The notes beneath the pieces are model-generated. The model did no database searches. It worked only from the letters and a program-made list of their open reading frames with translations, and was not told the DNA's origin. 64,000 bases of DNA, from contig JANQFG010000005.1 of the NCBI GenBank assembly GCA_028277985.1, forward strand, positions 1 to 64,000. The letters are read 5' to 3'. The translations under genes and the position numbers were made by a program. The DNA comes from a bacterium (GTDB lineage: Bacteria > Desulfobacterota > DSWW01). This document shows positions 6,676 through 20,206 of the stretch, piece after piece; the stretch's first letter is position 1; every line of letters starts with the position of its first letter.

Positions 6676-8910
6676 TCACGCCGCAAGCTGCATGTCCCCT
6701 TTTGAAACACCCTTGAGCTGCAACCGGAATATCCCGTCCAGATCCAGGATCAGGCACACTCGCCCGTCTCCCAGGATCGATCCCCCGGCAACGCCTTCCG
6801 GATGACTCCATCCCTTTCCCAGACTCTTGATCACGACTTCCTGTTTTTCCAGCACTTCATCGACGAGGAGACATCGGTTCTCGCCGTTCATCTCCACCAC
6901 CACCATCAACCCTTCCCAGATCTCGCTCCTTTCGGTCTGCACGGTGAACAACTCGTGCAGCCGAATCACGGGAAGCAGGTTCCCCCGGATCCGAACCATC
7001 TCACCTTTACCCACCAGGGTGAAACAGTCCTCCTCTCGGGGACGTATGGTCTCTCGTATGTTCACGGTAGGCAGCACATATCGCTCTTCGCCTACGCGAA
7101 CGATCATCCCGTCGATGATCGCCAGCGTGATCGGCAGTTTCATAATAAAGGTGCTGCCCTTCCCCGGAACCGACTGAATCTCGATCTTGCCCCGCAAACC
7201 CTCTATGGTCTTCCTCACGATGTCCATACCCACGCCCCGTCCCGAGACGTCCGTCACGGTATCGGCCGTGGAGAAGCCGGCCCGGAAGATGAGCTGATCG
7301 ATCTCGTGGTCGGCGAGCACTTCATCCGGACTGACGATACCTCGTTCGATCGCCTTCTTGAGAATCTTCTCCCTGCTCAGCCCCCGGCCGTCATCCCGGA
7401 TCTCGATGACGACATTTCCACCTTTGTGGTAGGCGTGAAGGGTGATGGTCCCTGTCTCCGACTTCCCCGTCGCTCGCCTCTCTTCGACGGGGTCGATTCC
7501 GTGATCCACCGCGTTGCGCACCAGGTGCACCAGCGGTTCGTAGACGGCATCCACCATGTTCCGATCGATCTCGGTCTCCTCTCCGTGCATCACGAGATTG
7601 ATCGATTTGCCCGACTTGCGAGAGAGATCTCGAACCAGCCGAATCATCTTGCGGAAAGTCTGCTGCAGCGGCACCATCCTCAGACTCATCGTGGTGTTCC
7701 GAAGCTCGGATGTAATTCGAGAAAGCAGCCCAAAGCTCTTGCTGAGCACCCGGTCCTTCATCGATTGGATCCCGGGATGCTGCTGGACGAGCGCCTGTGC
7801 GATGACCAGTTCCCCTACCATATTGACCAGGTCATCCAGCTTCTCCATGTCCACCTTGATCGTGGTCTGGCCCTTAGAGCTGGTCGCCTTGGGTGCAGCA
7901 CCTTTCGGCTTCGAGTTCTGCGCAACCGGCTCCGGTGCCGTCCGAGGTTTCGCAACCTTCTCGCAGACCGGCCCTGACTCCTCTTCTTCCTGCTCCACCA
8001 CCTCGGGGGCTTCTGTTGTCGCGACCGGCTCGGCGGTTTCTGCTGGTTCCGAGGCTTCCTCCGGTTCTGCTTCCGACGCCTCACCGTCTCCCTTCAGCAT
8101 GGCTAGGAAATCTGCAGTCTCGCCGGACAGGTCTTCTGCGGTGCCCCCTTCCAACCTGATCCGCACACTTTCGAGAAGCTTCTTCAAGAGGTCGACCGCT
8201 TCCAGGGTGGCCTCTATCTCCCGCGGGCCTATCTTGATATCACCCTTCCGCGCCTTGTCCAGCAAATCCTCCACGGCGTGGGTGAGCCGGTTGATCAGGT
8301 TCAGATTCAAGAAACCGGACACGCCCTTGATCGTGTGAAAGGGGCGAAAGATCTCGTTCACCACGTCCAGATTCGAGGGATCTTCTTCCAGACTCAGGAT
8401 CTTCACCTCGATCGATTCGAGACTCTCGTCCGCTTCCATCAAGAAGTCGTCATAGAGGTCTCGATCGGCCTCTATCCCCGTCAGGGGTTTGGTCTCTTCG
8501 CCACCGCCAGACTCCTCCTTCGCCTCTTCAACCGCTTCCGGTTCTCCTTCCTGTTGAGAAGTCTCTTCCGATACCTCCTCAGCCTCTATCGGATCCCCGG
8601 AGAGGATTCGCTTCAGGTCCGCTTCGATCTCGACGAGCCGTTCGGGGAAGGAATCGCTGTCAATGATCGATTCGCTCACCTTTGTCTGGATCCCCGACAA
8701 GAGATCCAGCACTGCGGTGTTCTCTTGTGCGAAAGGATCCGACAACAATCCATCGATGATCTTCAACGCTTCCTGAAAACTACTCGGGTCTTCTGCGTCC
8801 ACTAGAACGATTGCGGTGGAAAGCTCCTGCACCGTTTCCTTGAACTCCACTTCTCTCTCTTCTGCAGTCATGTTCGCGTCGATCCTCATGATGATGTTAT
8901 TCTTTTCCAC
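6676..8910 (-). CDS. cheA: Chemotaxis histidine kinase CheA
   Basis: This 744-residue protein has the CheA domain order. There is an N-terminal helical extension of about 140 residues with an acidic tail. The Hpt domain (about 148-255) has phosphorylated His192 in RPFHTIKGVSGFL. A Glu/Pro-rich linker without a clear P2 domain follows. The P3 dimerisation domain starts near TTIKVDMEKLDDLVNMVGELV. The ATPase domain has LVHLVRNAVDHGID, DDGRGL and GRGVGMDIV, and a CheW-like P5 domain lies at the C-terminus. The start given is GTG at 8910, overlapping the HDOD gene by 14 bases; ATGs at 8889 and 8871 are alternatives without a better ribosome site. No cheW gene is visible nearby. Confidence 0.95.
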   Translation of the reverse strand: MEKNNIIMRIDANMTAEEREVEFKETVQELSTAIVLVDAEDPSSFQEALKIIDGLLSDPFAQENTAVLDLLSGIQTKVSESIIDSDSFPERLVEIEADLKRILSGDPIEAEEVSEETSQQEGEPEAVEEAKEESGGGEETKPLTGIEADRDLYDDFLMEADESLESIEVKILSLEEDPSNLDVVNEIFRPFHTIKGVSGFLNLNLINRLTHAVEDLLDKARKGDIKIGPREIEATLEAVDLLKKLLESVRIRLEGGTAEDLSGETADFLAMLKGDGEASEAEPEEASEPAETAEPVATTEAPEVVEQEEEESGPVCEKVAKPRTAPEPVAQNSKPKGAAPKATSSKGQTTIKVDMEKLDDLVNMVGELVIAQALVQQHPGIQSMKDRVLSKSFGLLSRITSELRNTTMSLRMVPLQQTFRKMIRLVRDLSRKSGKSINLVMHGEETEIDRNMVDAVYEPLVHLVRNAVDHGIDPVEERRATGKSETGTITLHAYHKGGNVVIEIRDDGRGLSREKILKKAIERGIVSPDEVLADHEIDQLIFRAGFSTADTVTDVSGRGVGMDIVRKTIEGLRGKIEIQSVPGKGSTFIMKLPITLAIIDGMIVRVGEERYVLPTVNIRETIRPREEDCFTLVGKGEMVRIRGNLLPVIRLHELFTVQTERSEIWEGLMVVVEMNGENRCLLVDEVLEKQEVVIKSLGKGWSHPEGVAGGSILGDGRVCLILDLDGIFRLQLKGVSKGDMQLAA

Positions 8911-9754
8911 CGCCGTTGAACGCGTGCAGCATTTCTTCCACCTCGGCGAGGATCGTGGAAGAAACCAGATCGAGCACGTTGTTGTTCAACGGGAGCCTGG
9001 AGCTGATCTTCACCGATGGCTGATAATTCAGCCCATCCACCTCTGTTCCGGTCCCAGTAGAAATACTCAGAATGTCCGCAACATGTATGAGGTCTACCTC
9101 GAGGGAATCCCCTTCGAAATTCTCGGGCTGATGATGCCAACGAACCACATCGACGATATGAGCCGGGAGGCTCCACTGCTCGAAGAGCAGGGCCCCTACC
9201 TCCGCATGATCGATTCCGAGAACCTCTCTCTCCGCCATTTCGAAGGAGTAGTCTTCCTCGTAGGCCAACTGAATGATCGGGTTCGCATCCACCTCCACGA
9301 ATGTCCCCAGCACGGTCTTTCCGACATCGTGCAGAATCGCCGACGTGAAAGTAGACTTCGGCGCCTTCAATTTCATCGTCTCTGCCAGGCGGTTGGCGGC
9401 CAAGGCCACGGTGATCGAGTGCTTCCACAATGTCCCGGCCTCGACGTCGTATCCCCGGACCGGCTTCTCCGAAACACTGCGCGCGAAAGCGGTCATGGTC
9501 AGCTTGAAGGTGTTCTCGGTGCCGAGCCACATGATCGCATCTTTCACAGTGCTCATGGTCTTCGCGCTTCCGAAGTAGGCCGAGTTCGCGAGGCGCAGCA
9601 CGTTTGCACTGAGACCGGAGTCGAGCTCGATGGCACGTGCCAGGTCCCGGATACTGACTTCCGGATCCTGGTAGAGCGCGATCACCTCCCTCGCAGCGGG
9701 CGGCATCGCGTCTATCTCGCCAACCTTGGAAAGAATCTCGTCTCTTCGGCTCAT
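8897..9754 (-). CDS. HDOD-domain protein
   Basis: This is a 285-residue protein with one HDOD domain (residues 10-210), the relative of HD phosphohydrolases found in signalling loci. The typical start MPPAAREVIALYQDPE and the IRDLARAIELDSGLSANVLRLANSAYFG helix pair are clear. An HD-like pair is partly kept (SAILHDVGKTVLG, GIDHAEVG). HDOD proteins usually act as binding or scaffold parts rather than proven enzymes. It lies between cheR and cheA with an overlap to cheA. The ATG is preceded by GAGGAGAACCTGTA, a good ribosome site. Confidence 0.88.
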   Translation of the reverse strand: MSRRDEILSKVGEIDAMPPAAREVIALYQDPEVSIRDLARAIELDSGLSANVLRLANSAYFGSAKTMSTVKDAIMWLGTENTFKLTMTAFARSVSEKPVRGYDVEAGTLWKHSITVALAANRLAETMKLKAPKSTFTSAILHDVGKTVLGTFVEVDANPIIQLAYEEDYSFEMAEREVLGIDHAEVGALLFEQWSLPAHIVDVVRWHHQPENFEGDSLEVDLIHVADILSISTGTGTEVDGLNYQPSVKISSRLPLNNNVLDLVSSTILAEVEEMLHAFNGGGKE

Positions 9755-9792
9755 TACAGGTTCTCCTCGGTCCCCATCCTCAGGTTGCTGCC

Positions 9793-10596
9793 CTACCGTT
9801 TCAGGTAGATCGACGGTCTGACAACTTCCAGGTGCATGGACAGACCAACCAGGTTTTCCGAATGGCCGACCATCAGGTATCCACCAGGCCGCAAGAGCCT
9901 CGAAATCTCCTCGAGCAGGTTCTTGCGGACCTCCTTGTCAAAATAGATCATCACATTCCGGCAGAAGACCACATCCAAAGGCCCCTTCATGGGAAAGGGG
10001 GGCTTCGACAGGTTGAGCCTCTTGAATACGATCCGGTCCTTGAGGATCGATTTTGCCCTGTAGACGGCGTCCTCTCCCCTGCCTTCTTTGTCGAAGTAGC
10101 GAGCCTTCAGAGCCTTCGGAACCGTCTCCAGACTCCTCTTCTCGTACTGTCCTACCACACATCTTTCCAGCACTCGGGTCGAGATATCGGTGGCAAGGAT
10201 CCTCATGTCCACCTTCGCGTCCTTCACTGCCTCTAGGAACGTCATTGCGATCGTGTACGGCTCCTCTCCGGTCGAAGACGCGGCCGACCAGAAGCGGAAT
10301 CGCCGCTGTCCCTCGGAGGACCACTTGGAGATCACCTCCGAAAAGAAATCGAAATGATCCGGTTCCCGGAAGAAGCTCGTCACGTTGGTGGAAATCACGT
10401 TGAGAAGCTGCACGAGTTCTTCCCCGCTCTTGTCCCTCCGCACGTACTGGAGGTAGGTTCTGCTGTCCGGCATACCGAGGGCACGAAGCCGCTTCGCCAC
10501 CCGGGCGGACACCATCGCCTCCTTGCCTGCCTGCAGAGAGATGCCGCTTCTTTCGTAGATGAGCTCTTTGAAATCTCTGAACGTCGTTTGGTCCAT
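9793..10596 (-). CDS. cheR: Chemotaxis protein methyltransferase CheR
   Basis: This is a 267-residue SAM-dependent methyltransferase. An N-terminal helical CheR domain (FRDFKELIYERSGISL) is followed by the Rossmann domain. Visible motifs are STNVTSFFREPDHF, RFWSAASSTGEEPYTIAM (the SAM loop), ILATDIS, and a final DVVFCRNVMIYFDKE with GGYLMVGHSEN. It methylates receptor glutamates, opposing CheB. It is the first gene of the minus-strand che operon. The track starts at 10647, but ATG 10596 (MDQTTF) has GTGAGGATC upstream and fits family length, so it is preferred. Confidence 0.93.
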   Translation of the reverse strand: MDQTTFRDFKELIYERSGISLQAGKEAMVSARVAKRLRALGMPDSRTYLQYVRRDKSGEELVQLLNVISTNVTSFFREPDHFDFFSEVISKWSSEGQRRFRFWSAASSTGEEPYTIAMTFLEAVKDAKVDMRILATDISTRVLERCVVGQYEKRSLETVPKALKARYFDKEGRGEDAVYRAKSILKDRIVFKRLNLSKPPFPMKGPLDVVFCRNVMIYFDKEVRKNLLEEISRLLRPGGYLMVGHSENLVGLSMHLEVVRPSIYLKR

Positions 10597-10712
10597 GATC
10601 CTCACACAGGTGGAGTGCCCGCGACCCCCCGAAACACCTGAAGCCATGGTGTCGGCGGAGCACTTGTTTCCACTTTTCTCATTGATTTCATACGATTAGT
10701 TTCTGCTACGGT

Positions 10713-10728
10713 ATAAAACGTGTTTTAT
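10713..10728. promoter_or_regulatory. Palindrome in the cheR/VWA divergent region
   Basis: ATAAAACGTGTTTTAT is a 16-bp palindrome broken only at its centre. It lies in the AT-rich 357-base gap between the divergent cheR and VWA genes. It is a possible operator or promoter-overlapping site. No clear -35/-10 pair could be fixed, and nothing else gene-like is seen in the gap. Confidence 0.3.
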
Positions 10729-10953
10729 TATTTGCCGTCTTGTCTCACTCCCGAATCAACCTCGTAACTCCTTATATCGGCTACAGAATTTCTTTCATTA
10801 GTTTTTTCTTTCTTTTCCCGAGAAAAGCGGTAGGAGTTCAACAGTAAAGATGTTTCTCCCAGTCGCCGAAGTTATTATATTGCAGACCCGGTTCGCTTTC
10901 GTTGCTCTTTGCCGGGAGGAATCGACAGCCCCTTTCGACAGACTGGGAGAACC

Positions 10954-12426
10954 GTGAAAAGAACTTGTTTGGCCGCTCTCTTCTGGGCGCTGGGCGCCCT
11001 ATCGAGCCCTTCCTTCGAGGCCATTGCAGCCGAAGGGGGGATGGACATCGTTCTGGCCATCGACACCTCGGGAAGCATGAAGAAGACCGACCCCCACAAT
11101 CTCAGGGCAGAAGCGGCGAAGCTGTTCATCCACCTGCTCGGGCAGAATGACCGTCTCGGGCTGGTCACTTTTGACACGACAAGCCGCGTCCTTTCGGATT
11201 TGAAAGGGGCCAGAGAAGAGCGCTCCTATCTGATCGACCAACTCCGTCACATCAAGTCGGACGGATTGTACACAAACCTCCACGAGGCGATTCGGTGCTC
11301 CGAGGACATCCTGAAGGCCTCTGCCAGAAAGCGCAGGGCCGTGATCGTCATGACGGACGGCAAGATGGATCTTGGAGACCCGGCCAGAGACCGGGAGCTT
11401 GCGCAACGACTGCAGGACAAACGCCTTCCGGCCATGCGTACCGAAGGTATTCGCGTCTTTTCCATCGCTTTCACCGAGTTTTCGGACATACGGTTCTTGA
11501 AGAGGGTCGCCTTCAGCACGGACGGTTTCTTCTATCTGACCCTGAAAGACGAGGATATTCATGTCACCTTCACGGACATATACGATCATATGCTCGCGCC
11601 CGACGCCCTTCCTATTCGGAAGGAGAAATTCTACGTCGACCGTTCGGTGAAGGAACTCGACATCGTCATCACAAAGGAGGATCCTCATACCGGCATCGCC
11701 CTGGAAATGCCGGATCGGCGCATGCTGACTCTGGCAAAACACCCACGCAACGTGCGATGGCATCAATCCAGAGCCTTTGAGATGATCAGCATCGCTGAAC
11801 CCCTGGTCGGGTCCTGGCGAATACAGTACGGCGCGGACAAGGGGAACCGGATCTTCATTCTGACGGATCTCAAGCTCATGACCGCCTTTCCTGACGGGTT
11901 GGTGCCGCCCGACACGGAAGTGAAACTGGAGGTCTGGCTCCACGAGGGCCCTGTGACCTTGGAACGCAAGCCAGTGTCGATAAAAGACGTGAAGATAACC
12001 GCTAAGATCGTTCCCTCGGGTGAAGAGGGCATTGCGATTCCGCTCTACGACGATGGCACGAACGGAGATTTGGAGGCTGGGGACGGCGTCTATGCAGCGA
12101 TGATCAAGCCTACGAGGCGAGGCGAGCACATGCTGCACGTTGGAGCCCACGGGCTCACCTTCGAGAGAGAGAAGAACCTCGCCTTCTATGTCCCGGAGAA
12201 AGAACTCGAGGATACGCTGCCCCCAACCGAAGATTTGCAGCCCCTGAACGAGCACGCATTGCCGGATGTGGAGGCGATGCCCTTACAGGACGGCGCTCCG
12301 GGCACAGATTGGCGGAGCGTGCTTCTAAGGTTTCTTGCGATCAATGCCGTCCTTGCCCTTATCCTGTCTGTCACTCTCATCCTGAGGCGACGAAGAGCCC
12401 AGAGCGGTGAGGCCAAGAAATCATGA
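10954..12426 (+). CDS. VWA-domain protein with signal peptide and C-terminal membrane anchor
   Basis: This is a 490-residue exported protein. The signal peptide (KRTCLAALFWALGALSSPSFEAIAA) leads directly into a von Willebrand A domain with an intact MIDAS: DTSGSMKKTD, Thr in YTNL, and MTDGKMD. A beta-rich middle region includes a DDGTNGDLEAGDGVYAA segment like those in choice-of-anchor or calcium-binding domains. One transmembrane helix near the end is followed by RRRR. Most of the protein should face the periplasm. The track begins at a TTG (10909); the GTG at 10954 directly precedes the signal peptide and follows GGGAGA, so it is preferred. It overlaps the next gene by ATGA. Confidence 0.75.
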   Translation: MKRTCLAALFWALGALSSPSFEAIAAEGGMDIVLAIDTSGSMKKTDPHNLRAEAAKLFIHLLGQNDRLGLVTFDTTSRVLSDLKGAREERSYLIDQLRHIKSDGLYTNLHEAIRCSEDILKASARKRRAVIVMTDGKMDLGDPARDRELAQRLQDKRLPAMRTEGIRVFSIAFTEFSDIRFLKRVAFSTDGFFYLTLKDEDIHVTFTDIYDHMLAPDALPIRKEKFYVDRSVKELDIVITKEDPHTGIALEMPDRRMLTLAKHPRNVRWHQSRAFEMISIAEPLVGSWRIQYGADKGNRIFILTDLKLMTAFPDGLVPPDTEVKLEVWLHEGPVTLERKPVSIKDVKITAKIVPSGEEGIAIPLYDDGTNGDLEAGDGVYAAMIKPTRRGEHMLHVGAHGLTFEREKNLAFYVPEKELEDTLPPTEDLQPLNEHALPDVEAMPLQDGAPGTDWRSVLLRFLAINAVLALILSVTLILRRRRAQSGEAKKS

Positions 12427-13577
12427 CCGTCGATCCCCTCTACATCCTCCTCATGATGGAAGCGATCCTCGTCCTCACGGTTCTTTTGATCCTGGTGATC
12501 CGCCGTGCGAAGGCAGAACCCGTCTCGGCACCTGCTCCGGAACCCGTGTCTGAGCCTGTGCCCGAGCCGGTTCAGGACTCGGATATGATCCGGAGATCCC
12601 TCTTCCTCCGCATGCTGGAAGAGAACATCAAAGATATTCAGAAGAATTCGGGCATTGGGGAGGACGGCGAAGGTGCGGAATCACAGGGCCTGCTCCTCGA
12701 CCAAGTGTACAACCTGAACATGGATCTCCTGAAGAGCCTGAGCGAGGCGCTTCAAAAGGAGGAGACAAACGCGGTCGAGTCCCTGTCTGAATCCCTCACC
12801 GTCAAGTTTCGCGTTTCCGTGAATGACAGGCTTCTCTCCTTCATGCGTGCTCTGGAGGAGCAGCCTCTGTCTTCGCAAGATTTCGACCCAGCCTCACCTG
12901 AGAATCGTCTCGTCACAAGAGAGACGTACGACCGAATACAGAAGAACGTTACCAATGTGGTCAATCTCAACAAGGAGATGAAGGAGCAGATCCTCAACAT
13001 GCAGGGGGAAGAAGCTCTCAGCGAAGAGGGGACCACGAGTCTGACCAAGAACATGGACCTCATGACAGCTTTCATCGGTGATCTGGAAAACTCGAATCGA
13101 GAGCTGGAACTCTGCGTGAACACCCTCGAGAAGGCGAACGACGACCTCTCGAACCAGCTCGCCGAGCTGACGCAGAAGCTGAACCAGAAGGACCCGTCGG
13201 ATGAACCGACAGAACAGAGCGATGAGTCGACAGAGCCGGCGGAACCGGACAAGGAAACGGAAGAACCGGTAGAGGGGAGCGGCACGTCAGCCGAGGCGGT
13301 GGAACAGGCCGAGAAGCCGGAAGCGCCGGTCGATGGTACAGATCAACCGGAAGAGCAGACTGCCCAAGAAGACCAACCGGCAGAAGAGCCGCAGCAGGTC
13401 TCTACACTGGAAGAACAGGTAAAGCAGAACGAGAAAATGGTCGAAGAGATATTCCAGAATGTTCAAGCCGAGAAAGAACAGGAGCAGGACCATCCCTCAG
13501 AAGAACCAGAGAAGCAAAAACCCCCGAGCGAAAATCCAGATAACCAACCTTTAGAAGGGGAAGCAAATGAACGTTGA
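12423..13577 (+). CDS. Membrane-anchored coiled-coil protein with acidic Pro/Glu-rich tail
   Basis: I do not recognise a family for this 384-residue protein. It has an N-terminal transmembrane helix (YILLMMEAILVLTVLLILVIRR), a long helical region with heptad-like spacing (about 55-260), and a C-terminal third rich in Glu, Pro, Gln and Thr (repeated TEQ/SDE/TEPAEP) likely to be disordered. Most of it should be cytoplasmic. It is translationally coupled to the VWA gene (ATGA) and overlaps the following CheX gene by 11 bases. The three therefore probably work together, for example as a membrane-bound signalling partner of CheX; that role is inference. Confidence 0.7.
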   Translation: MTVDPLYILLMMEAILVLTVLLILVIRRAKAEPVSAPAPEPVSEPVPEPVQDSDMIRRSLFLRMLEENIKDIQKNSGIGEDGEGAESQGLLLDQVYNLNMDLLKSLSEALQKEETNAVESLSESLTVKFRVSVNDRLLSFMRALEEQPLSSQDFDPASPENRLVTRETYDRIQKNVTNVVNLNKEMKEQILNMQGEEALSEEGTTSLTKNMDLMTAFIGDLENSNRELELCVNTLEKANDDLSNQLAELTQKLNQKDPSDEPTEQSDESTEPAEPDKETEEPVEGSGTSAEAVEQAEKPEAPVDGTDQPEEQTAQEDQPAEEPQQVSTLEEQVKQNEKMVEEIFQNVQAEKEQEQDHPSEEPEKQKPPSENPDNQPLEGEANER

Positions 13578-14031
13578 GTTCGTCAACCCATTCCTGGAAG
13601 CCGTCATCAACGTCCTGGGCACCATGGCAAGCACCGAAGCTTCACCCAAGCCACCTTTCGTGAAGAGTGACGACCGGGCTATGGGAGACGTGACCGGTGT
13701 GTGTGGAATGGTAGGAGAAAAGGCGAAGGGCTCCCTCGCGATTTCCTTCACGGAGGAAGCGATTCTCTCCATCGCTTCCCGGATGCTCGGAGAAGAAATC
13801 TCAAGCATGGACGAAACCATCGCGGACGTGGTGGGGGAAATCACCAACATAGTGGTCGGAGGCACCAAGAGGGCCCTCGTAGAGCAGGGCTACACCTTTG
13901 ACATGGCCATCCCGAGTACGGTGATCGGCAAGGACCACTCCATTTTTCACAGAACCGACGGTCCCATCATGATCGTGCCCTTCGAGACCGACGCGGGCAA
14001 GTTCTTCGTGGAGGTCTGCTTTGAGAAGTAG
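13567..14031 (+). CDS. cheX: CheX-family CheY-P phosphatase
   Basis: This 154-residue protein closely follows the CheX pattern. An N-terminal helix (EFVNPFLEAVINVLGTM) is followed by a strand/turn GVCGMVGEKAKGSLAISF. The active helix ETIADVVGEITNIVVGGTK holds the family's catalytic Glu-x2-Asn (E-I-T-N), and a C-terminal strand region follows. It removes phosphate from CheY-P. It is the last gene of a three-gene + strand unit with the VWA and coiled-coil proteins and is preceded by AGAAGGGGAAGCAA. The window thus holds two CheX-type proteins of different type. Confidence 0.88.
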   Translation: MNVEFVNPFLEAVINVLGTMASTEASPKPPFVKSDDRAMGDVTGVCGMVGEKAKGSLAISFTEEAILSIASRMLGEEISSMDETIADVVGEITNIVVGGTKRALVEQGYTFDMAIPSTVIGKDHSIFHRTDGPIMIVPFETDAGKFFVEVCFEK

Positions 14032-14071
14032 AGGGCTCCATCAGGAGATGAGGCAATCAACGGCAGAAGCC

Positions 14072-14317
14072 TCAGTTCCAGTGGGGCTCCACCGGTTCGA
14101 GACGAACGGAGAGGTCCTGCTGTTGGACAGGGTGGCCGGGCCCCTCCGTATTGAGCCGATCCTTCTTGAGGGCCGAGATCATCTCCGGTCCGTAGGCGTC
14201 GATCAGGTGCCTTGCCGACACACCGATCAGAAGGCAGACACAGGCGACAACCACCATCCTGACAGCGTGAAATAGCCTGACGGCCCCCCCTATCGCTTTC
14301 TTTCGAAAATCCAGCAT
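14072..14317 (-). CDS. Small membrane protein, unknown
   Basis: This is an 81-residue ORF with one hydrophobic helix (AVRMVVVACVCLLIGVSA) followed by a short hydrophilic tail. I do not recognise it. Support comes from a strong ribosome site, AGGGGGAAGG immediately before the ATG. It is convergent to cheX. It could be a short-lived or accessory membrane peptide, or a chance ORF. Confidence 0.45.
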   Translation of the reverse strand: MLDFRKKAIGGAVRLFHAVRMVVVACVCLLIGVSARHLIDAYGPEMISALKKDRLNTEGPGHPVQQQDLSVRLEPVEPHWN

Positions 14318-14507
14318 CCTTCCCCCTTTTTTCGGTCAGGCCCCGCCTCGGAAAACCGAAAAGTCTCTTTTGAAGCCGTTCAACCCTTATAATCAATATT
14401 ATATTTGGTATTCCACGTGTGTGCAAGGGCCTCCCCATTCGTTATACCTGCCGCCGAAACATCTCGGCAGGAAATAGAACAGGAAGAACGACTCTCTGAA
14501 ACAACTC

Positions 14508-14537
14508 TTGACACGCTCATCCAACAAATCCTATTCT
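14508..14537 (+). promoter_or_regulatory. Candidate sigma-70 promoter for the riboswitch transcript
   Basis: TTGACA (14508-14513), an 18-base spacer and TATTCT (14532-14537) form a plausible promoter about 130 bases before the aptamer. The 14318-14859 gap otherwise holds only the riboswitch. Confidence 0.4.
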
Positions 14538-14670
14538 CAGAATACCGTTGTGGGTTTCATATCTTTTTCTATGATCGTTCCACCACCATCTCTGTCTCCG
14601 CGTTCAACCACCCTCGGTCGTACGCTTCCCAGCAGGCCGCATGCACCACCACAACGGATCGACCCTGGTT

Positions 14671-14785
14671 ACGGCACCCAGAGTAAGGCAAAGCCACACC
14701 AGCCGTGAGGCTGGGCCGGAAAGCCACGGGTCTCGTCGCAATCTCGCCCGCCAGCCGAGACAGCCGGGCTGCCAGCACGTATAGC
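14671..14785 (+). ncRNA. GEMM-I (c-di-GMP-I type) riboswitch
   Basis: The stretch reads ...AAGGCAAAGCC-ACAC-CAGCC(GTGA)GGCTG-GGCCGGAAAGCCACGGGTCTCG...CGAGACAGCCGGGCTGCC. It shows the GEMM-I hallmarks: a conserved GGCAAA-CC segment, a P2 stem capped by a GNRA tetraloop, the AAAGCCACGGG tetraloop-receptor strand, a P3 stem (GTCTCG/CGAGAC) and the closing AGCCGGG-TGCC. By my hand alignment the ligand-reading position is G, which favours c-di-GMP over cGAMP, but this is uncertain. It lies 75 bases before the ORF at 14860 on the same strand. No run of Ts marks a terminator, so control may act on translation. Confidence 0.75.
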
Positions 14786-14859
14786 GCCGGATTTGTGTTC
14801 TGTCTCATCGATTCCAATGGGTCCAAAAAAGTCTCAGGAGGACAGAAAGGAGACGCGAC

Positions 14860-15159
14860 ATGATTATCCTTACGATCTCGTCATTTCCGCCGGAAAGTGC
14901 AAGAGAGATAGGCAAACGCTTCATGGAGAGGGGCTCCCTGCCGGATTACATCAAAATGCGAGGTCCTTATGTCCTGCCTCGTCAGGCAGAGGGCATCCAG
15001 AGCATGACCTTGTACGAGGTCGACCGGCCCACCCGCATGGCGGAAGCCGTTGAGCTCCTCGCCAACGAACAGGCAAAATACTTCGGCACACCGGGGTACA
15101 CGTATTCCATCAACGTGTGTCTCGAAGCGGAAGAGGCGCTGAAGACGATCGGTCTCTAG
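14860..15159 (+). CDS. Unrecognised 99-residue protein under a GEMM riboswitch
   Basis: This is a small soluble protein without a signal peptide or membrane segment. I do not recognise the family. The mixed alpha/beta pattern (MIILTISSF... REIGKRFMERG ... MTLYEV ... EAVELLANEQAKYF ... YSINVCLEAEEAL) is compatible with a small ferredoxin-like or dimeric alpha-beta barrel fold, which is only a guess. The ATG follows AAAGGAGACGCGAC. The upstream riboswitch suggests its level follows the motile/sessile second messenger. It converges on the response regulator gene. Confidence 0.75.
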   Translation: MIILTISSFPPESAREIGKRFMERGSLPDYIKMRGPYVLPRQAEGIQSMTLYEVDRPTRMAEAVELLANEQAKYFGTPGYTYSINVCLEAEEALKTIGL

Positions 15160-15191
15160 AGGGCGGGCCGTCATGGCCGGCACCTGAGGAT

Positions 15192-16589
15192 CTACACGCC
15201 TCGAAGAAATCTCCGGTACTTCTTCAGCCTGTACCGAAACGTGCTCTCCGGAAGGCCGAGAAGCTTTGCTGCGTGAGATTTGTTTCCCTTTGCCTTCAAC
15301 AGGGCGCTCCGGTATTCCGAGGCCAGCTGCTCTTCCACGGCATCCACCAGATCCTCGTCCTCGACTCCCACCATCCTATGCGTCCTGGCCCCATCACGGG
15401 CCAGGGCGAGAAGGGAGGTCGTGAAGTCGTCCGAGGACAGGGTCCTTGCCTTGGTGGAGATCACGGCCCGAGCCAGCACATTCTCAAGTTCTCTGACATT
15501 TCCGGGCCAATCGTGCTCCTCGAGCCTTGCTAGGGCAGAGGGGAGAAGCGTAACGGCCGGTTTGCCGTGTTTCCGGCAGTACTTTTCCAGGAAATAGGAG
15601 ACGAGGATCGGAATGTCCTCCTTCCGCTCGCGGAGGGGCGGAATCCTAATGGGAAGTATGTTCAGACGATAGAACAGGTCCTTACGGAAGGAGCCTTCCG
15701 TGACCGCATCGGAGAGGTCCCTGTTCGCCGCAGCGATGACCCGGGACTCGAGTTCGATCTCCGTGTTGCCACCCACCCTATGAACGGTCTTCTCCTCCAC
15801 GGCGTGAAGAAGCTTGATCTGCAGGTCCACAGGAATCTCGGCCACCTCGTCGAGGAAGACCGTACCCGCACCCGCATACTCGAACTTGCCGAGCTTGAAA
15901 TCCTTTGCCCCGGTAAAAGCGCCCTTCTCATGACCGAAGAGCTCGCTTTCGATGATGGTTCGGGACAATGCTGCGCAGTTCACGTGGACAAAAGGCTCGT
16001 CTCTCCGGTCGCTCCGCTGGTGAATCGCTCTGGCGACGACGCCTTTGCCGGCTCCCGTTTCTCCCGTGATCAGGACGTTCTCATCGATGCTCGCTGCGTA
16101 CAGAATCCCCTTGAAAACCTTCTTCATGGCCCTGGAACTCCCGACGAGGCCCTCGGGCCCGAAGGATTCGCTCCCGTCCGCCTCCAATTCACTCACCTTC
16201 CTCTCCAGGAGGTGCTTGTAGAGCGCACGTTCGACCACGATTGCGAGGACGTCCGGATTCACCGGTTTCAGTAGAAAATCCTCGGCACCGAACCGTATGC
16301 ATTCGATTGCGTCGTCCACCTTGCCTTGCCCGGTCATCACGATGATCTTGTTCCCCTCTCCTGCAACGAGGCACTCCTTGAAGAACTCGACCCCGTCGCG
16401 GACCGCGTATGACGGAGGCAGGGCCAGATCCAGCAGAAGAAGATCCGGCTTGATCCGATTGAGCTTCTCTCTGCCCTCCTCCCTGTCGGGCGCGATATGA
16501 ATCTCATAGCCCGAAGGCTCCAGGAGATCGCGGATCGACTCAGCGAGATACTCTTCGTCCTCGATAATCAAGATTTTCTCGTTTGCCAT
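15192..16589 (-). CDS. Sigma-54-dependent response regulator (NtrC family)
   Basis: This is a 465-residue three-domain activator. The receiver (1-125) has Asp54 in LLLLDLALPPS. The AAA+ domain (about 145-380) has Walker A GETGAGKG, the sigma-54 contact loop GAFTGA, Walker B VFLDEVAEIP and an R-finger region. A Fis-type helix-turn-helix (NKSHAAKLLGLPESTFRYRLKKY) closes the protein. It activates sigma-54 promoters when phosphorylated by its kinase, encoded 48 bases upstream. A ribosome site AAGGAC precedes the ATG. It is the last gene of the minus-strand run that starts with the radical SAM enzyme. Confidence 0.93.
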   Translation of the reverse strand: MANEKILIIEDEEYLAESIRDLLEPSGYEIHIAPDREEGREKLNRIKPDLLLLDLALPPSYAVRDGVEFFKECLVAGEGNKIIVMTGQGKVDDAIECIRFGAEDFLLKPVNPDVLAIVVERALYKHLLERKVSELEADGSESFGPEGLVGSSRAMKKVFKGILYAASIDENVLITGETGAGKGVVARAIHQRSDRRDEPFVHVNCAALSRTIIESELFGHEKGAFTGAKDFKLGKFEYAGAGTVFLDEVAEIPVDLQIKLLHAVEEKTVHRVGGNTEIELESRVIAAANRDLSDAVTEGSFRKDLFYRLNILPIRIPPLRERKEDIPILVSYFLEKYCRKHGKPAVTLLPSALARLEEHDWPGNVRELENVLARAVISTKARTLSSDDFTTSLLALARDGARTHRMVGVEDEDLVDAVEEQLASEYRSALLKAKGNKSHAAKLLGLPESTFRYRLKKYRRFLRGV

Positions 16590-16637
16590 GTCCTTGTCCT
16601 GTAGTGGGTGTTGGCGGACTTTGCGGAACTCCTGGAA

Positions 16638-17903
16638 TCAGGTGTACGTCGGAATCTTGATGCGAAATGTCGTTCCCTTCCCCTGCTGGCTCATGATATC
16701 GATGCTGCCCCTGTGATCCTCGATGATTCTCCGTGTGATCGGCAGACCCAGTCCGGTACCGCGCCCCCTGCGCTTTGTCGTGAAGAAGGGTTCGAAGGCG
16801 CGGGCACGAGCCTCTCTGGACATGCCTACTCCCGTATCCGAAATCTCCACCTGCGCCCAGAACACATTGTAGATCCCAACGCTGATGACCAGCTCTCCGC
16901 AGTAGTCCATCGCTTCGATCGCGTTCCTGATCACATTGATGAAGCCCTGCTGCAGCTGTACGTCGTCTCCCAGAACATTCACGGGATCGTGAGAGTATTC
17001 TTTCGAGACACCGAGATCTTTCCCCCGGGGCCTCTCCAGGCTCTTCATCACGTAGCTTGCCGCCTTATCCACCGTAGCCCGCAGATCGAGAGGGGCGAGA
17101 TCAAGACTCTGTTCCTCGATATAGGAGAGGGTCTGGTCGAACAGGTTCGACAATCGCTCTGTCTGGCCCCGGATGATATCGAGTTCTTCGCTCGGCCCGC
17201 GCTTTCGCAGAAGGGCAACCTCGTTCATGATGATGGCAAGCGGCGTTCTCAGCTCGTGGGTGAGACCGGCAAAGAAAGTGCCCAGATGTACGAGTGTCCT
17301 CTTCTCGCTCAGGACATTGACGACCTGAATGGCGATGAAGCCCCCGACCCAGAGAACGCCCAGGGCCTGAGACAGCCGGATGAGATAGTGAACCGGCTCG
17401 AGATCGCTCCTTCTCCCCACGGCTGCCGGGACCAGCTCGAAGAATTCGAACCAGAAGAGCGCCACATAGGAGAGGGAGCACGCGACCAGGATCCAGAGGA
17501 TCTCTTTACGCGAGAAGAGCCCGCTCGCATAGAGGATCAACAACAGATACAAGCTGGGCAGGAACGAGGATTGGATGCCTCCGAGAAAATGGATGAAGCC
17601 GGTCAGAATGATCACGTCTGTCAGCACCGTCAGGAGGTTGATCCGGTGCTCACGGAGCGGATACCCCCTAACCAGTGCATAATAGGGGACCCAGAGGAAT
17701 ATCTCGACGAAGCACAGACACCTGAGCGCCCAGATGTCGAGCTCCACCCTCGCGATCCCCGTGCCCATGGGCATACCGATGCCGGTGAAGTGAACCGCCT
17801 CGATAACGATCCACAGCAGCGTGACCACGACGGAGCGAAACTCGAAGGAGCGCCGTTTGAACCTCTCCTTCAATGGCCCTTCCACCTCTTGAACGTCCCT
17901 CAT
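16638..17903 (-). CDS. Membrane sensor histidine kinase
   Basis: This is a 421-residue kinase. About six hydrophobic segments lie in residues 25-200, with no recognisable periplasmic sensor domain. The DHp region has phosphorylated His216 in LTHELRTPLAIIMNEV. The HATPase domain has INVIRNAIEAM, DTGVGMS, FEPFFTTKRRGRGTGLGL and a final GKGTTFRIKIP. It is the likely partner of the sigma-54 regulator downstream. It overlaps the MMPL/RND exporter gene by ATGA, with GGAGGAAC before its ATG, so the three form one translational unit. The signal is unknown; a membrane or lipid cue would fit the linkage. Confidence 0.92.
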   Translation of the reverse strand: MRDVQEVEGPLKERFKRRSFEFRSVVVTLLWIVIEAVHFTGIGMPMGTGIARVELDIWALRCLCFVEIFLWVPYYALVRGYPLREHRINLLTVLTDVIILTGFIHFLGGIQSSFLPSLYLLLILYASGLFSRKEILWILVACSLSYVALFWFEFFELVPAAVGRRSDLEPVHYLIRLSQALGVLWVGGFIAIQVVNVLSEKRTLVHLGTFFAGLTHELRTPLAIIMNEVALLRKRGPSEELDIIRGQTERLSNLFDQTLSYIEEQSLDLAPLDLRATVDKAASYVMKSLERPRGKDLGVSKEYSHDPVNVLGDDVQLQQGFINVIRNAIEAMDYCGELVISVGIYNVFWAQVEISDTGVGMSREARARAFEPFFTTKRRGRGTGLGLPITRRIIEDHRGSIDIMSQQGKGTTFRIKIPTYT

Positions 17904-20206
17904 GTTCCTCCGGATCCTTCCCTGCCGAAGGGTTTGAAGGTCATAATCAGAACCGGCAAGAGCAGAAGATCTGCGGCCAGAGCACCGAAGACCGTGAAGC
18001 CGACCAGGGCACCGAAATTCCGTGTTACCTGAAACCCGGAGATCAGGAAGATCAGGAACCCGGCGATGAAGATGATCGAGGTATAGATGAGCGCCTTGCC
18101 GACACTCTCCATGGTGTTGAGAATCGCCTGCCGGTATTCTCCTTCCTGTCGGAATTCGATTCGGAACCGTGCCAGGAAGTGCATCGTGTCGTCCACGGCC
18201 AATCCGAGGGCTATACAGGCGAACGGCGTGGTGAACAGGTTCAGGGGCAACCCCAGGAGCCCCATGACACCGAAGGTGAAGGCCACGGGGAAGAAGTTCG
18301 GTATCATACTCAACAGACCGACCTTGACCGACCGGAAAGAGACGGACACCATCAGGAAGATCAGGAGACCGGCGAGGGGAAGACTCTTCTGCAACCCCGC
18401 GATCAGGGGCTCCTGCAGATTGGTGAGCAGGATGGAGCGTCCTGTCAGGTGTACCTCCCGAGCAGACGGGAACGCCCTCTTCAGATAGGCCCGGGTCTGG
18501 TCGATGACCAGGGACAGAGAGGCAAGATCGCTCGCGTCAAAGATGACGGTCAACACGGTGCTGCGCCGGTCCGGGCCCACGAACTCCTCCAGGAACCCCT
18601 CGTCGTCGGAAAAGGATGCGAGCAGGAGCAACTGCGCCGCAGCCCCCTTCTCCTTCGGCACCTCGAAAGCCCCGGCCCTTTCACCATTGAACTTGAAATT
18701 CAGGTGTTTGATCACATCCACAACCGAGAGCACCCTCCCTATGTGGGGTTGGGACTCCAGAAATTCCTCCAGGTCCTCTAGGCCCCGCAGGACGGATGGA
18801 TCCGTTATCAAATCGGGCTCATCCATCTCGATCGATATGTAGAAAACCCCGGCACCGGCCACATGCTCGTTTACCCACCTCTGGGATTGCTTGAGGGCGC
18901 TCGCCTTGCCGAACCAGTTTTCCGCATCCGTATCCACGTGGAGTTGCCGAGTGCCGGCGTAGGTCACGGCGACAAGGACAATCGAGGCGCCCAGGATGAG
19001 CCCCGGTCTCTGCATATTGACCTTTCCCAGCCTCCTTAGCAGCGGACCGAGCCTTCCGGGTATCGGGTTTTCCTTGGTTCTGAATTCCATCAGGTGGAGA
19101 TGGCGTAGATACGAAAGGAGGATCGGGATCACGACGATGCCGAACACGTATGCGAACCCGATGCCGACCGCCGAATAGACGCCCATCTGCTGGATCGGCA
19201 CGAGGTCGTTGATGACCATGGACCCGAAACCCACCATGGTGGTCAGGCTCGTCAGGAGGCACGGAACCGCGGACAACCGGACCGTGCGCACGATCGCGTC
19301 CCGTCGGCTCACCGCCTTGTAGACGCTATCCTGGTAGTTGGCCAGGATATAGACGCAATCGGAGGTGCCGATCACGAAGATCATGGTCGGGATCAGGATG
19401 GTCACTAGGTTGATCTCCCCTGTGACCAGGGTCAGGAGCCCGATCGTCCAGATCACGCTCAGCAGGACGGCCACAAAGGGGATGACGGTCAGATAGTAGT
19501 TGCGGAACACCAGAAACATGGAGCCGACCACGAGTACCAGCGTGAAAGGCAGGTAGGTGAGCAGGTCGCGGAAAGTCTGTTTCGTGACATAGGCTGCCAC
19601 AGGCGGGCTGCCGGCCATATACAGGCTTCGGCCCGATATCCTAGACTCTTTCTGGAGGATCTCCTCCAACTCGTCGACGAGTTCCTCCCGCGCCTTCCGG
19701 TTCGACATGGATTCGTCGAGCTTGAGGTGAACGGCTCCCACATGGAAGTCCTCGGAGGCCAGGATGCCGAAATAGAGCGGATTCGACCGGATCCGTTTCT
19801 CCAGGGCGTCCCTCTCCTGTCTCGTATCGGGAAACCGCTCGATCAGTTTCACGATCTCGATCGAGTCGCCGTCGCTTCGCACATCCTGCGCGCTCATCAA
19901 TGATATCGCCTTGGCGACATGGGGAGCCTCCTCCAGGACCGACTCCAGCCTCTGGATATACGCCAGGCTCTCCCTGGAGAGGACGTCTTCGGTTTCAAAG
20001 GCCACGACGAGGATCTCGTCGTAACCGAATTGATCGAGGAAGCGCTCGAAGAACTGGAAGTCCCGGTCGCTTTTCAGGGTCAGCTCGTCGAAATCGTCAT
20101 TGATCTTCAGTGAGGGGAGCAGGAAGAGGCAGCCCAGGGTCATGCAACCCACGAGGGAGAGAATCAACGTGCGGTTGCGAATCAGGAACTCGGTATACCC
20201 GGTCAT
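17900..20206 (-). CDS. MMPL/RND-superfamily exporter
   Basis: This is a 768-residue inner-membrane protein with two homologous halves. In each, one transmembrane helix is followed by a large periplasmic domain and five more helices. Motifs include NDDFDELTLKSDRDFQFFERF after the first helix, FVIGTSDCVYILANYQD in the first half and LGLAVDDTMHFLARFRIEF in the second. The layout fits hopanoid- and lipid-exporter-like MMPL proteins rather than HAE-type drug pumps; no adaptor or outer-membrane gene is near. The track start is a GTG at 20218, but ATG 20206 has GGGGGA just upstream and is preferred. A 134-base gap separates it from the protease gene before it. Confidence 0.88.
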   Translation of the reverse strand: MTGYTEFLIRNRTLILSLVGCMTLGCLFLLPSLKINDDFDELTLKSDRDFQFFERFLDQFGYDEILVVAFETEDVLSRESLAYIQRLESVLEEAPHVAKAISLMSAQDVRSDGDSIEIVKLIERFPDTRQERDALEKRIRSNPLYFGILASEDFHVGAVHLKLDESMSNRKAREELVDELEEILQKESRISGRSLYMAGSPPVAAYVTKQTFRDLLTYLPFTLVLVVGSMFLVFRNYYLTVIPFVAVLLSVIWTIGLLTLVTGEINLVTILIPTMIFVIGTSDCVYILANYQDSVYKAVSRRDAIVRTVRLSAVPCLLTSLTTMVGFGSMVINDLVPIQQMGVYSAVGIGFAYVFGIVVIPILLSYLRHLHLMEFRTKENPIPGRLGPLLRRLGKVNMQRPGLILGASIVLVAVTYAGTRQLHVDTDAENWFGKASALKQSQRWVNEHVAGAGVFYISIEMDEPDLITDPSVLRGLEDLEEFLESQPHIGRVLSVVDVIKHLNFKFNGERAGAFEVPKEKGAAAQLLLLASFSDDEGFLEEFVGPDRRSTVLTVIFDASDLASLSLVIDQTRAYLKRAFPSAREVHLTGRSILLTNLQEPLIAGLQKSLPLAGLLIFLMVSVSFRSVKVGLLSMIPNFFPVAFTFGVMGLLGLPLNLFTTPFACIALGLAVDDTMHFLARFRIEFRQEGEYRQAILNTMESVGKALIYTSIIFIAGFLIFLISGFQVTRNFGALVGFTVFGALAADLLLLPVLIMTFKPFGREGSGGT

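Follow-up and report, generated by a model that had tools for sequence, protein, structure and literature searches.

The closest described systems to the element reported here are the cyclic diguanylate (c-di-GMP) riboswitch Vc2 of Vibrio cholerae, represented in Rfam by the general c-di-GMP-I model (RF01051), the Rfam family c-di-GMP-I-GGC (RF03167) and the Geobacter riboswitch for 3′,3′-cyclic GMP-AMP (cGAMP), also called GEMM-Ib (PDB 4YAZ). The key conserved positions for recognition of c-di-GMP are G20, C92, A47 and A48 (PMC3764141), in the Vc2 numbering used throughout. The Geobacter cGAMP riboswitch has a C15-G40 pair at the position matching C21-G46 (PMC6274999), and point changes low in helix P2 are reported to affect the selectivity between c-di-GMP and cGAMP (PMC9262584). 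Here we describe an aptamer of this type in a 64,000-nucleotide stretch of DNA from a Desulfobacterota bacterium (the window; positions 1 to 64,000 of the forward strand of contig JANQFG010000005.1, assembly GCA_028277985.1), where it precedes a 99-codon gene. We consider it probable that the transcript carries this single gene behind a c-di-GMP-I (GEMM-I) riboswitch in its 5′ leader, and that synthesis of the encoded 99-residue, predicted ferredoxin-fold protein is thereby made to depend on c-di-GMP.

The aptamer and its leader

Analysis of the window with cmscan revealed a match to RF03167 at 14684-14777 (+ strand, 65.8 bits, E 2.5e-13) which covered model positions 1-80 of 80 and exceeded the gathering score of 59. 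RF03167 was the top-scoring Rfam model of the clan; the general RF01051 model scored 57.3 bits over the same coordinates, above its gathering score of 35. The GEMM-type riboswitch proposed in an earlier note, made from the sequence alone, was therefore borne out by the covariance scan, with its 5′ end at 14684 and not at 14671, and the GNRA-capped P2 and the two strands AAAGCCACGGG and AGCCGGG named in that note were all present. This was the sole riboswitch in the window: a second RF01051 match (15220-15304, - strand, 19 bits, E ~1) fell inside a sigma-54 regulator gene and was taken as chance. No score above the cut-off was obtained with either model in 14 control genomes. The riboswitch is an ordinary relative of those known from the c-di-GMP-I clan, and the parts of the leader and its gene are as follows.

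14684-14777, + strand: c-di-GMP-I-type (GEMM-I) aptamer, from the RF03167 and RF01051 scores
14693 (G20), 14694 (C21), 14719 (G46), 14720 (A47) and 14772 (C92), + strand: key residues in Vc2 numbering, from the Rfam alignment
14699-14714, + strand: P2 hairpin CCAGCC-GUGA-GGCUGG with the GNRA tetraloop GUGA at 14705-14708, from the Rfam alignment and the sequence
14729-14734, + strand: 5′ strand of P3, GGUCUC, from the sequence; putative alternative partner of GAGAC in the ribosome-binding site
14757-14763, + strand: 3′ strand of P3, GAGACAG, the complement of CUGUCUC (14800-14806), from the sequence
14778-14859, + strand: expression platform, with CUGUCUC at 14800-14806 and the Shine-Dalgarno sequence GGAG at 14849-14852 within GGAGAC
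14860-15159, + strand: 99-codon gene with an ATG start, from homologues and an AlphaFold2 model; no Pfam or NCBIfam family

In the Rfam alignment, the pocket residues G20, A47 and C92 (14693 G, 14720 A and 14772 C) formed the canonical c-di-GMP triad. The window copy resembled Vc2 and RF01051 in its three helices, its GNRA-capped P2 and its pocket, A48 and A49 included, but differed in the P2 pair beside the ligand, which was flipped to C21-G46 (C14694-G14719) instead of G21-C46.

The open reading frame (ORF) at 14860-15159 started 82 nucleotides past the aptamer and followed the Shine-Dalgarno sequence AAAGGAG. We regard it as a real gene because relatives were found at 13 loci, the complete ones having the same length and the same start. 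Because the gene on the downstream side is convergent and that on the upstream side encodes CheX, the riboswitch can serve only the 99-codon gene. The features on either side are given below.

13567-14031: CheX gene, immediate upstream neighbour
14508-14537, + strand: putative sigma-70-type promoter TTGACA-18-TATTCT, ~150 nucleotides 5′ of the aptamer, from a pattern scan
15192-16589, - strand: sigma-54 response regulator gene, convergent, next downstream

The putative promoter is a consensus match only, agreeing with the consensus at 10 of 12 positions; 2 such sites were present in the 1.26 kb region compared to 0.3 expected.

Direction of control

No terminator-like site indicative of an intrinsic terminator was found between 14040 and 15300. 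The lack of a terminator in the leader makes translation the likelier level of control, and the 99-codon gene is probably regulated there. We propose that the ligand would bind the three-way junction (G20, A47, C92) and stabilise helices P1 and P3, and that in this terminator-less leader its presence would most likely be relayed to the ribosome-binding site, GGAGAC. This site repeats the GAGAC of the 3′ strand of P3, and its copy (14850-14854) is thus a potential partner for the GUCUC of P3 (14730-14734). The GUCUC strand would hold the site when P3 is unformed, and ligand binding would free it (ON). GAGAC was found in the ribosome-binding site of three of the five terminator-less copies in the genus, compared to 16 of the 194 Shine-Dalgarno-bearing starts in the genome's sequence, a comparison made post hoc. 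In eight relatives of the aptamer (L006, L007, L041, L045, L052, L054, L058 and L066), two of them from the same genome as the window copy, the aptamer's 3′ strand doubled as the 5′ arm of a terminator, an arrangement that identifies the eight as ON switches. Such ON-type terminators are a likeness to the Geobacter cGAMP riboswitch, as found at pilM.

Several results weigh against this mechanism. The leader folded no better than shuffled sequences (z 0.13 and -0.20) and the Shine-Dalgarno sequence was 25% unpaired both with and without the aptamer enforced. The swap between GUCUC and GAGAC involves only 5 base pairs, and the alternative pairing of GAGACAG with CUGUCUC would favour OFF. We lean slightly towards translational ON, at about even odds and ahead of OFF.

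An OFF switch is a tentative alternative. Here the ligand-bound P3 would occupy GAGACAG, leaving CUGUCUC (14800-14806) to hide the ribosome-binding site, and in the ligand-free state GAGACAG and CUGUCUC would pair and the site would open. The duplex between the linker and the aptamer was calculated at -21.2 kcal/mol, a value that 47 of 1000 shuffled linkers also reached (post hoc), at transcript lengths of 124 to 154 nucleotides the minimum-energy structure contained the GAGACAG-CUGUCUC hairpin, and the start region was hidden in the fold of the leader without its aptamer. However, pairing of the linker with the Shine-Dalgarno sequence was at chance level (595 of 1000 shuffles), the accessibility of the site was equal between the two states in the computed ensembles, and the relatives with recognisable terminators are of the ON type.

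Ligand and sister aptamers

Ser or Thr at the base-recognition position of a GGDEF domain marks the cGAMP-making Hypr enzymes (PMC6456294). The genome had 18 GGDEF matches, none of which (0/18) had Ser or Thr at this position; the canonical ones retained Asp. A GacA-type cGAMP synthase (Hypr GGDEF) was thus not found in the genome, which at 95.7% complete is not proof of absence. Because no such enzyme was found, c-di-GMP is the likeliest ligand of the window aptamer.

The flipped pair was examined in a residue table of 34 aptamer copies sampled across the phylum. C21-G46 was present in 20 of these (18 with G20, one with A20 and one with U20) and G-C in the other 14, with no broken pair, and all eleven copies in the genus combined G20 with C21-G46. 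As it is this widespread in the phylum, the C-G pair alone is not diagnostic of a cGAMP riboswitch.

It nevertheless bears on a second alternative, which we think unlikely: that the aptamer senses 3′,3′-cGAMP, or cGAMP plus c-di-GMP, in the manner of the Geobacter GEMM-Ib riboswitches. The window copy and the Geobacter riboswitch share the equivalents of A47 and C92, and C21-G46 at the base of P2 equals the Geobacter C15-G40 (PMC6274999). Together with the reported effects of the lower part of P2 (PMC9262584), this likeness counts against a simple assignment to c-di-GMP and leaves the ligand selectivity uncertain. Position 20 has also been described as a selectivity factor and not a hard filter (PMC9262584), and elsewhere in the phylum one copy (L058, genome G043) pairs A20 with C-G. 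On the other hand, cGAMP recognition goes with A at position 20, where the window copy and every other genus copy had G, and no GGDEF domain of the genome was found to have Ser or Thr at the Hypr position. cGAMP as the first-choice ligand was rejected on these two differences from the Geobacter system. It is similarly improbable, in our view, that the deltaproteobacterial aptamers with G20 and C21-G46 have a selectivity of their own (e.g. dual for c-di-GMP and cGAMP), which here would control an undescribed cytosolic ferredoxin-fold family plus a secreted-protein regulon. These natural aptamers, in which the c-di-GMP residue G20 occurs alongside the P2 pair seen in the cGAMP riboswitch, are a ready test set for cyclic-dinucleotide selectivity. 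The A20 copy L058 (G043:C355:3483-3563), with its C21-G46 pair, is itself a candidate cGAMP riboswitch as judged from these residues.

Seven copies above the RF03167 threshold were present in the genome of the window. Contig C35 had four in succession, each 5′ of a paralogous secreted protein of ~314-318 residues; the copy on contig C291 preceded a 343-residue secreted Cys-rich protein and that on contig C261 a 442-residue secreted protein. Four further copies were present in the two remaining species of the genus, and each of these preceded a protein whose N terminus has a signal-like segment. By a simple measure, the hydropathy of the first segment was 2.5-3.3 for all ten other genus targets versus 1.1 for the window protein, and among the genus copies only that of the window precedes a protein predicted to be non-secreted. 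The C291 copy was its nearest aptamer relative, agreeing at 74 of 96 positions and with similarity extending 10 nucleotides beyond the aptamer, so the window aptamer probably originated by duplication within the secreted-protein regulon.

Such an origin raises a third alternative, in which the aptamer is a relic duplicated from that of a secreted-protein gene, with the 99-codon gene behind it by chance and without working regulation. The C291 aptamer, the closest at 74 of 96 positions, does serve a secreted Cys-rich protein, no other sampled member of the 99-residue family has a riboswitch, and the family is patchy, occurring in 9-10 of the 395 genomes sampled across the phylum. We nonetheless think a relic improbable, as the aptamer retained every pocket residue and its full helices, and the spacing between aptamer and gene was short, with a good Shine-Dalgarno sequence.

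Very improbable is a true c-di-GMP-I-GGC variant with an altered ligand, for although RF03167 gave the highest clan score, above gathering, its consensus has G at model position 37 (equivalent to A47 of Vc2), where A was read in the window copy and in every one of the 34 tabulated (G in 0/34). The RF03167 score therefore mirrors overall similarity within the deltaproteobacterial lineage and not a variant pocket, and A at residue 47 led us to reject the GGC label as the class of the window aptamer. Reading the meaning of the name from the model consensus, the label is misleading here, since the residue that would give the variant its name is absent. A name given to aptamers that lack this residue could mislead ligand predictions in Desulfobacterota.

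Two groups of sister loci were also recorded. Locus L037 (G000:C35 44000-63900) contained, at ~10986-18231, five paralogous genes in tandem for secreted Cys-rich proteins of ~313-318 residues; the first four genes each had their own GEMM-I aptamer and none was visible at the fifth. The two array proteins tested had no Pfam family. These tandem units of gene plus riboswitch may merit separate attention. Loci L004, L111 and L053 (G000:C291, G001:C212 and G002:C291) encoded a secreted protein under riboswitch control that is rich in Cys and in DxDxDG-like repeats, and it occurred in each of the three species of the genus.

The 99-residue protein and its relatives

According to the earlier note, the gene immediately behind the riboswitch encodes a small soluble protein outside any named family, and this agreed with our searches: the protein had no match in Pfam and one chance hit in NCBIfam (E 0.24), and no relative was found by sequence among solved structures. 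AlphaFold2 predicted a ferredoxin-like domain (predicted local distance difference test score, pLDDT, 90.4). Foldseek searches with this model aligned it to IsdG and monooxygenase-like chains at template-modelling (TM) scores of ~0.5 and to PII-like chains at lower scores, with no E below 1e-3. Our best guess is a dimeric alpha/beta-barrel domain with a binding or enzymatic role.

A single-protein search of the genome contigs with the 99-residue protein gave no match; relatives were recovered by a search with a closer alignment. They were 36-52% identical and came from named Deltaproteobacteria and Desulfobacterota metagenome-assembled genomes. Invariant positions included P10, P28, G35-P36, G45, P78-G79, Y82, A93 and G98. 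No c-di-GMP riboswitch was found near the homologue gene in the sampled homologous loci. The linkage was thus seen once, at the window locus, and was not borne out across homologues; on these loci, a general linkage of the family to riboswitches was rejected.

The same note had put the protein forward as a possible new effector in c-di-GMP signalling. This was unsupported, as the riboswitch RNA is the receptor and the protein would be at most a predicted output of c-di-GMP control in this organism. As aptamers of this family elsewhere in the genus control secreted proteins, neither linkage nor neighbourhood is a sign that the protein binds or transmits c-di-GMP. The locus extends the range of c-di-GMP riboswitch outputs by a single uncharacterised family of proteins.

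The chemotaxis genes which the note had reported nearby were present, CheX being immediately upstream. The region 5′ of the riboswitch (6676-14031) encoded CheA-like, HDOD, CheR-like and VWA proteins in addition to CheX, and constitutes a chemotaxis neighbourhood. In the homologous loci inspected, chemotaxis genes were not adjacent to the homologue of the 99-codon gene. Several homologues adjoined other small ferredoxin-fold genes, often DUF3303-like (PF11746), SCO4226-like (PF14026), GYD (PF08734) or Dabb (PF07876). These dimeric alpha/beta barrel families are the nearest described counterparts of the 99-residue protein, although it had no sequence match to any of them. Clusters of homologues with DUF3303-like, SCO4226-like and GYD proteins were observed at L079, L084, L085, L086 and L088, which suggests a functional module. 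At L080, L085 and L086, a conserved stretch of ~100 nucleotides (CATGAAAAGG..TATTATCGGAAAGTGCCGATATTTAGGCTTCCACGG..) with no Rfam match was present 5′ of the homologue, and this may represent a short ORF or else an unrelated element of the leader.
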